From Acidimicrobiia bacterium (GTDB lineage: Bacteria; Actinomycetota; Acidimicrobiia; IMCC26256; JAMXLJ01): a DNA stretch of 48,708 nt. The stretch lies in assembly GCA_035651955.1 (NCBI GenBank), contig DASRES010000023.1:1-48708 (forward strand). Direction: 5' to 3'. Shown piece after piece: positions 13,660-32,360 of the stretch (its first letter is position 1; every line of letters starts with the position of its first letter). Below the pieces are notes generated by a model. The model worked only from the letters and a program-made list of their open reading frames with translations. It was not told the DNA's origin and did not search any database. The translations under genes were made by a program, and so were the position numbers.

Positions 13660-13673
13660 TGACGCCGGCGTCA
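13660..13673. promoter_or_regulatory. perfect palindrome operator, site E
   Basis: TGACGCCGGCGTCA is a perfect 14-bp palindrome upstream of the aldehyde dehydrogenase gene (start 13603). It abuts the 8-bp tandem repeat array beginning at 13672. It matches TGACRSNNRYGTCA. Confidence 0.6.
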
Positions 13674-13719
13674 GCGAGCCAGCGAGTCAGCGAGCCAGCG
13701 AGTCAGCGAGTCAGCGAGT
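13672..13719. repeat. six tandem copies of CAGCGAGY
   Basis: Six uninterrupted 8-bp units: CAGCGAGC, CAGCGAGT, CAGCGAGC, then CAGCGAGT three times. The array covers the last codons and the stop of the LLM gene and runs into the operator at 13660-13673. On the gene strand each T-to-C step also makes or removes a TGA. It looks like a slippage-prone microsatellite. Confidence 0.85.
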
Positions 13720-14610
13720 CTTCGCGATGACGTCGGTCGCGAACGCTTCGGTCGCGGCGATCTTGGCGTCGAGGTCCGAGCGGGCGTCCGTGTTCACGCC
13801 GCCACCGGCCCCGGTGAACATCCACGGCGCGCAGATCGTGTCCGTCATGCCGAGGTCCTCGAAGCGCTTGTAGACGTCCGGCTCCGGCATGACCGCGAGC
13901 GCCATGTAGATCGCGAACCCGTCGGTGCTGCGCCCCTCGTCCGCGAGGTAGCGCTTCATCTGCTCGAGGTAGTGGCGACCGTCCTCCTCGGAGTAGGGCC
14001 CGGCACCGATCCACCCGTCGCACAGCCGCGCGGCGCGCCGCATCGCGACCTCGCTGTGGCCGCCGCCGTAGATCGGGACCTGCTTCTCGGGTGTGGGGTT
14101 CATCTGCAGCGCGTCGAAGTCGTAGAACGGCCCGTGGTACTCGACCCAGCCGCCGCTCCAGAGGGCGCGCAGCGCGGGGATCATGTCGTCGAGCCGCTTG
14201 CCCCGGTTGTGGAAGTCCTGGCCGGTCGCGTCGAACTCCTCCTTGCACCACCCGACGCCGACACCGAGACGAACGCGGTCGTGCGAGATGTACGCCGCGG
14301 TGCCGACCGACTTCGCGACCGTGAACAGGTCACGCGCCGGCGCGATGTACACGCCGGTCGTGAACTCGAGGTGCTCGGTGATCGCCGCCATCGCGGAGAT
14401 GAGGCACCAGCAGTCGGGCCAGTTCGTCTCCGGCGCCCAGATCGGCGATCCGTCCTCGTGCGGTGAGTACGTGTAGCGGGACTTCAGCTGCTTGGGGAAG
14501 AAGATGTGGTCCGACAGGTACACGCCCGCGTAGCCGAGCGTGTCGGTCGCGCGGCACAGGTCGAGCAGTTGGTCCGTCTCCATGAACGCGACGGCCTGGT
14601 GGAACCGCAT
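13711..14610 (-). CDS. LLM class F420-dependent oxidoreductase
   Basis: A 299-aa luciferase-like protein of the F420-dependent type. Conserved stretches are TDTLGYAGVYLSDH near the N-terminus, FTTGVYIAPARD, RVRLGVGVGWCKEEF around 110-125, and GGGHSEVAMRRAARLCDGW around 180-200. The ATG at 14610 is preferred over the in-frame GTG at 14616 because GGAGG lies five bases before it and the GTG overlaps that site. The 3' end runs into a CAGCGAGY tandem array, so copy-number change would alter the stop. A KstR-like motif (14631-14644) lies 21 bp upstream. Confidence 0.88.
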   Translation of the reverse strand: MRFHQAVAFMETDQLLDLCRATDTLGYAGVYLSDHIFFPKQLKSRYTYSPHEDGSPIWAPETNWPDCWCLISAMAAITEHLEFTTGVYIAPARDLFTVAKSVGTAAYISHDRVRLGVGVGWCKEEFDATGQDFHNRGKRLDDMIPALRALWSGGWVEYHGPFYDFDALQMNPTPEKQVPIYGGGHSEVAMRRAARLCDGWIGAGPYSEEDGRHYLEQMKRYLADEGRSTDGFAIYMALAVMPEPDVYKRFEDLGMTDTICAPWMFTGAGGGVNTDARSDLDAKIAATEAFATDVIAKTR

Positions 14611-29823: not shown

Positions 29824-30732
29824 GTGTCCCGACGTGTGTCGTCGCTGCTGCTGGCGGTCGGCCTCGCCGCTGCCGTCGTGGCCGCGGCCGCGTTCTCGAT
29901 CGAGAGCGTCGTCCTCGATCCCGGCCGCGTCCGTGCGGCCGGTCCCGCCGTGCTCGCGACCGCGCCCGTCCGCCGGGAGCTCGTCCCGCGCGTCGCGAGC
30001 GAGATCCGCGACCAGGCGCCGGGCGCGGGCGCGCTGACACCGGGCCAGCTCGACGACGTCGCGCGCGCGACGCTCGCCGAGCCCACGTTCATCCATGCGT
30101 TCTCCGGCGCACTGGTCGCGGTCCGGGGTCACGTGTTCGCGAGTGAGCAGCGCGCCGTCGTCCTCGATCCCGGCGACGTCGCCACCGCGATCACGCGTGC
30201 GTCCGACGGCATCCCCGCGCTCGCCGGGACCGGCACCGGGACGGCGCTCGCGCCGCACGTCACCATCGACGTCGGCTCGGCACCCGACCTGCACATCGTG
30301 TCGAGCGCGATCCGGACCTCGGGCCGCATCGCGCTCGTCGTGGCGGTGCTGGCGCTCGCGATCGCGGTACCGACGGCGGTGCGCCCCCGGCGGGCGCTCG
30401 CCCGGGTGGCGCGATGGGCGGTCGTGGTCGGCGTCGTGCAGATCGTCGTGCTGTGGCTGCTGCCGCGGTTCCTCCTCGCCGCGTTCGGCGCGTGGCCCGA
30501 CGTCGCGGCCGCGCTGATGCGCACCGCGGGCGCACCGGTCGTGCTGCTCGCCGGCGCGATCGTCGGCGTCGCGTGCGCCGTGCTCGCGGCGATCGGTCGC
30601 ATCGAAGCGGGCGCGCGACGTCGGGTCCGCGACGCGGAGCTGGATGACCTCCGCCGCCGGACGCAATGGTCACCGCCGCCGGCGGCTCCCGTGCCGCAGG
30701 CACCGAGACCCCGGCCGCGCTCCGGCGTCTGA
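29824..30732 (+). CDS. hypothetical four-helix membrane protein
   Basis: A 302-aa protein that I do not recognise. An N-terminal hydrophobic segment (about 7-25) is followed by a soluble region of about 140 residues with evenly spaced Asp/Arg. Three further hydrophobic segments lie at about 165-187, 195-220 and 235-258, then a basic and Pro-rich tail. The topology suggests a large extracytoplasmic loop. The GTG start at 29824 is the first in frame. It is the last rightward gene before the convergent histone-like gene. Confidence 0.7.
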   Translation: MSRRVSSLLLAVGLAAAVVAAAAFSIESVVLDPGRVRAAGPAVLATAPVRRELVPRVASEIRDQAPGAGALTPGQLDDVARATLAEPTFIHAFSGALVAVRGHVFASEQRAVVLDPGDVATAITRASDGIPALAGTGTGTALAPHVTIDVGSAPDLHIVSSAIRTSGRIALVVAVLALAIAVPTAVRPRRALARVARWAVVVGVVQIVVLWLLPRFLLAAFGAWPDVAAALMRTAGAPVVLLAGAIVGVACAVLAAIGRIEAGARRRVRDAELDDLRRRTQWSPPPAAPVPQAPRPRPRSGV

Positions 30733-30779: not shown

Positions 30780-31427
30780 TCAGCGCGTCCGCTTGGTGGA
30801 GCGGCGTGTCGACTTGCGCGCCGTCGACTTGCGGGCCGCCGTGTTGCGGCCGCCCGTGGACTTGCGGCCCGACGCGCGGGTCGACTTCTTCGTGCCGGTC
30901 GTCTTCCGCCGGGTCGTCTTGCGGGCTGCGCTCTTGCGCCCCGTCGACTTCCGGGTCGACTTCTTCGTCGACGTGCGCGGACTCGTCCTCTTCGCGCCCG
31001 TCGACTTGCGGGTTGTCGCCTTCCGCCCCGTGGACTTCCGTCCGGTCGTCTTCCGGCCCGCGGTCTTCCGTGCCGTCGACTTGCGGGCGGTCGACTTGCG
31101 CGTTGTCGACTTGCGCGCGCCCGTCGACGTGCGGGTCGCCTTCTTGGCACCCGCCTTCTTCCCGGCGGCCTTGCGGGTTGTCGACTTCCGGCCCGTCGCC
31201 TTCTGGCCGCCCGACTTTCGTGCAGTCGACTTGCGGCCGGTCGCCTTGCGCGCACCGGTCCGCTTCGTCGTCCGGCGCGTGCCGGGCTCGGGTGCCGGAA
31301 CGGGTGGCGGCATCGGCATCGCGCTGGCGAAGTCGTCGACCGACGACCGAACCTCGGTGCCGGCGAGCGCGCCGAGCTCGTCGTCGATGCCTTGCAGGCG
31401 GTCGTGGGATGCACTGTCGGAATGCAT
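30780..31427 (-). CDS. histone H1-like Lys/Arg-rich repeat protein
   Basis: A 215-aa protein with two parts. Residues 1 to about 50 are ordinary and slightly acidic (DRLQGIDDELGALAGTEV), followed by a Pro-rich linker. The remainder is a tract of repeated 5-8-residue units such as RKSTA, RKTTG and KKSTR, almost wholly Lys, Arg, Ser, Thr, Gly, Ala. This composition is that of histone-H1-like tails on actinobacterial HU and other nucleoid proteins. It probably binds DNA non-specifically, with many Ser/Thr available for phosphorylation. The ATG at 31427 follows GGAGGGGGCG at ideal spacing. The DNA repeats the same 12-base pattern with drift. Confidence 0.8.
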   Translation of the reverse strand: MHSDSASHDRLQGIDDELGALAGTEVRSSVDDFASAMPMPPPVPAPEPGTRRTTKRTGARKATGRKSTARKSGGQKATGRKSTTRKAAGKKAGAKKATRTSTGARKSTTRKSTARKSTARKTAGRKTTGRKSTGRKATTRKSTGAKRTSPRTSTKKSTRKSTGRKSAARKTTRRKTTGTKKSTRASGRKSTGGRNTAARKSTARKSTRRSTKRTR

Positions 31428-31640
31428 CGCCCCCTCCTCGTCCACGTGGTTCGCGGTCCCGTGTTCGCGCCGTCATCGCGCCGTGGTCGCGGCCGGCGTC
31501 CGTGCACGTGGTGTGCCGACCGGATCCCGCAGTGCGTACCCCGTCACGATGCGCTCGAATCGCGCGACACGCAAGCGCGCGCGTGCGCACGCGATCGGGG
31601 TACACGTGTCGGCACGCGCACGCCGACGACGGGAGGTCCG
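31428..31640. other. 213-bp divergent intergenic region
   Basis: The gap between the histone-like and pirin genes shows no gene. It presumably holds both promoters. An 8-bp palindrome, ACACGTGT, is at 31602-31609, 32 bp before the pirin start, but it is too short to call an operator. Confidence 0.4.
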
Positions 31641-32360
31641 GTGAGCGACGCGAATGCCGTGACCGTCGACGTCCGCCGGGCGCCGCAGCGCTTCCACACG
31701 CGACTTCCGTGGCTCGACTCGTGGCACTCGTTCAGCTTCGGCGAGCACTACGACCCCGACAACACGCACCACGGGCTCCTGCTCGTGAACAACGACGACA
31801 CGGTCGAGCCGCGGTCGGGGTTCGGCACGCACTCGCACCGCGACATGGAGATCGTCACGTGGGTGCTCTCCGGCGAGCTCGAGCACCGCGACAGCGCCGG
31901 GCATCACGGCGTGATCCGCCCGGGCGTCGCGCAGCGCATGAGCGCGGGGCGCGGCGTCGCGCACTCCGAACAGAACCCGAGCCCGGACGAAGCCGTCCAC
32001 TTCGTCCAGATGTGGGTGCTTCCCGACACGCGCGGGCTCGACCCGTCCTACGAGCAACGCGACATCGGCCCGTCGATCGCACGCGGTGTGCTCACGCCGG
32101 TCGCGTCAGGCCGCGCACACGACGGCGCCGTCTCGATCCACCAGCGCGACGCGGTGCTCTGGTGCGCGCACCTGGAACCCGGCGACACGGTCCGACTCCC
32201 CGGAGCCCTTCACGTGCACGTCTTCGTCACACGCGGTGGCGCCGCGCTCGACGGAACGGAGCTCTCGGCCGGCGACGCCGTGCGCCTGACGCACGCGGGC
32301 GAGCAGTCGCTGTCCGGGACGCGCGACGGCACGGAGATCCTCGTCTGGGAGACGGCGTGA
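31641..32360 (+). CDS. pirin family protein
   Basis: A 239-aa bicupin of the pirin/quercetinase-like family. Metal ligands of the N-terminal cupin are visible: GFGTHSHRDMEIVTWVL gives two His, and GRGVAHSEQNPS gives His and Glu. The opening FHTRLPWLDSWHSFSFGEHYDP is the strong family signature. Bacterial pirins bind Fe or other metals and some degrade flavonols; the true role here is unknown. The GTG start has GGGAGGTCCG before it. It is convergent with the enoyl-CoA hydratase gene. Confidence 0.93.
   Translation: MSDANAVTVDVRRAPQRFHTRLPWLDSWHSFSFGEHYDPDNTHHGLLLVNNDDTVEPRSGFGTHSHRDMEIVTWVLSGELEHRDSAGHHGVIRPGVAQRMSAGRGVAHSEQNPSPDEAVHFVQMWVLPDTRGLDPSYEQRDIGPSIARGVLTPVASGRAHDGAVSIHQRDAVLWCAHLEPGDTVRLPGALHVHVFVTRGGAALDGTELSAGDAVRLTHAGEQSLSGTRDGTEILVWETA

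Follow-up and report, generated by a model that had tools for sequence, protein, structure and literature searches.

The gene and its neighbours

The window, by which we mean the whole 48,708-nucleotide stretch of Acidimicrobiia DNA analysed here, carries on its minus strand, at 30780..31427 with the stop codon included, a gene for an H1-like protein of HC2 type, recognised from its open reading frame and translation, a match to the Pfam HC2 model and a syntenic copy in a congener. The frame specifies 215 amino acids, from an ATG at 31427 to a stop codon at 30780-30782 (ORF list and translation); a GTG six codons upstream of the ATG, at 31445, is also in open frame. Directly ahead of the ATG, at 31430..31439 of the same strand, lies what appears from the sequence to be a Shine-Dalgarno-like element, GAGGAGGGGG. 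GC content by codon position in the gene's frame is 0.51/0.74/0.90. A scan for promoters found none, and one for terminators gave a result at chance level.

To the left is a plus-strand gene (29824-30732) whose product has hydrophobic stretches and no Pfam match, preceded by a BON-domain gene. The pirin gene on the right (31641-32360) is divergent; past it come a minus-strand enoyl-CoA hydratase gene and then a TetR-like gene whose match falls just under its cut-off. The sample contains one further genome of the genus, G001, in which an H1-like gene occupies the corresponding position with the same orientation, flanked by counterparts of the membrane-protein gene (41% identical to that of the window) and the pirin gene (69%), with what we take, from the look of their translations, to be MarR-like and enoyl-CoA hydratase-like frames lying between the H1-like gene and pirin. 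The G001 copy, with a GTG start after AGGAGG, encodes 248 residues and follows the same plan of acidic head, proline linker and RKT tail, the length of the tail differing from that of the window copy. Among the best named matches to pirin are several Acidimicrobiia MAGs, at 64-65% identity, interspersed with others, so that an origin in Acidimicrobiia or close to it is likely. No lysine-rich tail stands beside pirin at any of the 80 named pirin loci, and in the full set of 86 loci scanned, which adds L044-L049, the congeneric copies (L044 and L045) are the only ones.

The repeat tail and the acidic head

Residues 50-215 (30783..31280, minus strand) form a basic tail of RK(S/T)T pentamer repeats with a net charge of +65, delimited by composition and lag analysis, with tandem repeats of period 15, 30 and 75. 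Its 166 amino acids include 40 T, 33 R, 32 K, 21 A, 20 S and 17 G, and 17 of the 20 pentamers led by RK continue with S or T. Self-identity of the tail is 0.41 at lag 5 versus 0.04-0.19 at lags 2-4 and 6-8, and since it stands above the neighbouring lags the 15-nt period is real. All 32 tail lysines are coded by AAG, and third-position GC in the tail is 0.92. The first-pass annotation had described a histone-like protein with more than 150 residues of Lys/Arg/Ser/Thr units on an acidic head, and the tail length, the pentamer period, a head charge of -7 and an HC2 score above cut-off all agree with it. It had also entertained the thought that the length of the repeat tract might be an assembly artefact; this is unlikely, both because the gene recurs at the matching position in a separate assembly, that of G001, where its tail has varied independently, and because the repeat units are degenerate (63-78% matches between copies at the DNA level) and not exact copies. 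Elsewhere in the window, at 13670-13720, there is an octamer tandem repeat, GTCAGCGA, of 6.4 copies with 90% matches.

The whole protein scores 45.8 bits with Pfam HC2 (PF07382), for which the gathering score is 40; the G001 copy reaches 125.4 bits, and two stand-alone tail genes considered below 47.3 and 53.0. Residue order, and not composition alone, yields the score, because none of three residue-shuffled tails matched HC2. The NCBIfam models are not passed, that for chlamydial Hc2 (NF038052) giving 42.3 bits with a cut-off of 135 and the Burkholderia model 28 bits with a cut-off of 80. HC2 is the only Pfam match of the protein; the HU domain (PF00216) is absent from it, which rules out an HU fusion, and the two HU genes of the window genome are located elsewhere. 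Of the 61 genomes searched around the window genome, 51 have HC2 at E <=0.001 and 23 have it above cut-off, versus one match and none over cut-off in 14 control genomes; tails of this general kind are thus common in the group. As we read the sequences, an HC2 score says 'pentamer basic repeat' and would not be evidence of descent from the chlamydial gene. The protein is ordinary in kind: a tail of HC2 type joined to a small head specific to the genus.

That head, residues 1-49 (31281..31427, minus strand), has a net charge of -7 and is predicted to consist of a helix at about residues 4-36 followed by a proline-rich linker (PMPPPVPAPEP); AlphaFold2, run on a two-sequence alignment, gives a single helix at 4-36 with mean pLDDT 80 and pTM 0.34. 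The heads of the window species and G001 are 33% identical, and their global alignment lies 5.7 s.d. above shuffles (P 0.009 with the proline segment kept in place). For the helix part alone the similarity is not significant (P 0.13), and in a BLASTP comparison of head against head the sole part that aligns is the RK with which the tail begins (E 0.012). Homology of the two heads is accordingly argued from shared position together with the global alignment. Against shuffles, the hydrophobic moment of the helix is marked in G001 (P 0.0005) and not clear in the window species (P 0.09).

The first-pass annotation had proposed a search with the head alone. This matched no Pfam family, and relatives came only from the window genome and G001, both among 58 genomes of the order and among 395 of the class, where at most 16 candidates were scored per genome and distant heads could be missed. 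The named genome collection gave no confirmed relative, nor did viral contigs, and the PDB gave one chance-level match (E 1.4). Weak matches that are not credible relatives comprise three besides the gene itself in one search (E 0.006-0.009), four in the 58-genome search (E 0.007-0.026) and three in the 395-genome search (E 0.002-0.004), of which the two inspected, L130 and L132, are without such a tail. Since it was found only in these two among the genomes searched, the head appears restricted to one genus, as far as the samples reach. Phage or plasmid origin was considered and set aside: the whole protein has no tblastn match in phage and plasmid collections, the viral contigs were as just described, and the only PHROGs match is at E 0.38.

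Tails of this kind elsewhere in the class

The window genome (G000) has further tail carriers: an HU with a fused tail (C8), an HU without a tail that precedes a stand-alone tail gene (C46), a phasin-like coil with a tail (C53; 27.7 bits with the Pfam Phasin model, for which the cut-off is 28.8) and a putative NYN/S1-like protein with a tail (C90, at L134:1387-2502), for which all Pfam matches are below cut-offs. A class-wide search for the tail, scoring at most six candidates per genome, found a match at E 1e-10 in 29 of 395 genomes, and 26 loci were inspected. The heads there are presumably NYN/S1, CarD, DksA/TraR, topoisomerase I, HU or coiled coils, with some tails standing alone.

Eight genomes have an HU gene without a tail and, at most about 100 nt downstream in the same orientation, a distinct gene for an H1-like tail (L002:1085-1859, which is G000:C46; L038:4960-5852, which is G001:C70; L008, L021, L025, L028, L034 and L160). 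These separate genes begin VTVPPAKR or MPPAKK/MPAAKK, and at L145 the same tail is fused in frame to HU. The pair has the look of a HupB split in two. An H1-like tail is also present, in many genomes of the class, on a protein whose head carries VVVDGSN (L134, which is C90 of the window genome, and L012, L013, L142-L144, L149, L151, L154, L156, L159 and L163), called NYN/S1-like here from the sub-threshold Pfam matches at L134. In what we take, from the look of their sequences, to be CarD-like proteins (L010, L153, L161 and L162) and DksA/TraR-like proteins (L016, L031, L033, L148 and L150), the lysine-rich repeat is N-terminal and not C-terminal.

The tail in this poorly studied class acts, at the loci inspected, as a reusable part, met on HU, beside HU as its own gene, and on phasin-like, CarD-like, DksA/TraR-like and NYN/S1-like proteins, and the protein of the window adds one more head to the domains bearing H1-like tails. 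The distribution could help in studying the spread of disordered basic tails; the single protein alters no established view.

Likely function and known relatives

A search of the literature on H1-like proteins in this class, within the terms used, found none on this protein. Our preferred reading, which we hold to be probable, is a nucleoid-associated protein of the bacterial H1-like (HC2/AlgP) kind, its tail binding DNA and its helix self-associating or docking on one partner. The disordered Lys/Arg/Ser/Thr pentamers would bind and neutralise DNA without sequence preference, the proline-rich linker would hold the short acidic helix away from the tail, the helix would most likely self-associate or dock on one partner, and several tails gathered through it would bridge or tether DNA. 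DNA binding, self-association and tethering are thus what we infer for this protein, and the role in targeting or oligomer formation that the first-pass annotation envisaged for the head can reasonably be supposed. The reading draws on the HC2 match above cut-off, the charge disparity between tail and head and the predicted helix; on the retention in G001 of a same-place copy with the same plan and a head similar at z 5.7; and on HbhA and PhaF as solved precedents, in excerpts of PMC10665949 and PMC3574117, of a helix and basic tail acting on DNA. Counted against it are the P of 0.13 for the helix part, that of 0.09 for the hydrophobic moment in the window species and the NCBIfam scores below cut-offs. 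Nor is a basic repeat tail alone proof of DNA binding, since M. tuberculosis RplV did not shift DNA despite its four AKKA motifs (excerpt of PMC10665949).

That behaviour of RplV, that such motifs need not bind DNA, also lends something to the view that the tail binds RNA or ribosomes instead, the protein being an RNA chaperone or a former of condensates, as do the similar tails on putative RNA-acting proteins of the same genome (the NYN/S1-like C90); in HupB, HbhA and AlgP fragments, the relatives studied best, the tails act on DNA (excerpts of PMC5676037, PMC10665949 and PMC9239181), and we judge the RNA view quite unlikely. Rather unlikely, too, is a granule tether of the AlgP/PhaF kind, in which either the head or the tail would attach to a storage inclusion, one of polyphosphate and not of PHA, that the tail would anchor to the nucleoid. 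Polyphosphate granules are not evenly spaced without AlgP, which is H1-like and needs its repeat tail for this (excerpt of PMC9239181), and both congeners encode polyphosphate kinase, but the enzyme is common, being encoded in 7 of 14 control genomes, and its presence tells little. A PHA role, including that of a PHA-granule phasin, is unlikely because neither congener has a match to the PHA synthase N-domain (PhaC_N, PF07167), the single domain sought, and the head has no profile similarity (1% probability in hhalign) to four phasin-like heads from relatives.

That the genus-specific acidic helix and proline linker are a new adapter, fastening the nucleoid to a partner such as a granule, membrane or divisome part, with a tail copied from the separate H1-like gene adjacent to HU, we regard as unlikely. 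It is highly improbable that there is no protein gene here, only a chance-open GC-rich repeat or the antisense frame of a plus-strand gene: both strands are open, as elsewhere in this GC-rich window, but start and ribosome-site signals occur in two species with a common protein plan, high third-position GC and an HC2 match. The gene is genuine and was correctly seen at first pass.

Among known systems, the protein resembles the HC2 family (Hc2/HctB of Chlamydia, BpH1 of Bordetella) in its basic pentamer repeats, in a tail length that varies between relatives and in the Pfam cut-off passed; Hc2 itself is made of lysine-rich pentamers in variable number (excerpt of PMC2848022). Unlike that family it is richer in Arg, Ser and Thr, has an acidic helical head and proline linker, and stays far under the NCBIfam HC2 cut-off. 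With the stand-alone tail genes, G000:C46 and G001:C70, it shares RKST/RKTT pentamers and the HC2 match, whereas these lack the acidic head and directly follow a tailless HU gene. Mycobacterial HbhA and HupB likewise join a domain to an H1-like tail in Actinobacteria, and their tails, in HbhA the C-terminal domain, are needed for DNA binding (excerpts of PMC10665949 and PMC5676037), but they have HU or a different coiled coil as head and AKKA/PAKK as motifs, whereas the window protein is without HU. AlgP and PhaF of Pseudomonas have the same order of N-terminal helix and long C-terminal H1-like repeat tail (excerpts of PMC9239181 and PMC3574117), with KPAA units and heads of about 120-140 residues where the window protein has RKST and about 37 plus the linker. 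PhaF, with an N-terminal amphipathic helix, a leucine zipper and a DNA-binding tail, is a tetramer in solution (excerpt of PMC3574117); the window genome, by contrast, is without a PHA synthase match and the head, on the Pfam and hhalign results above, is not phasin-type. The first-pass annotation was right that the protein is unlike HU-type fusions insofar as it has no HU domain; its novelty was overstated, the tail passing the HC2 cut-off and the joining of a helical head other than HU to a long H1-like tail being an already known architecture, that of AlgP, PhaF and HbhA (excerpts of PMC9239181, PMC3574117 and PMC10665949).
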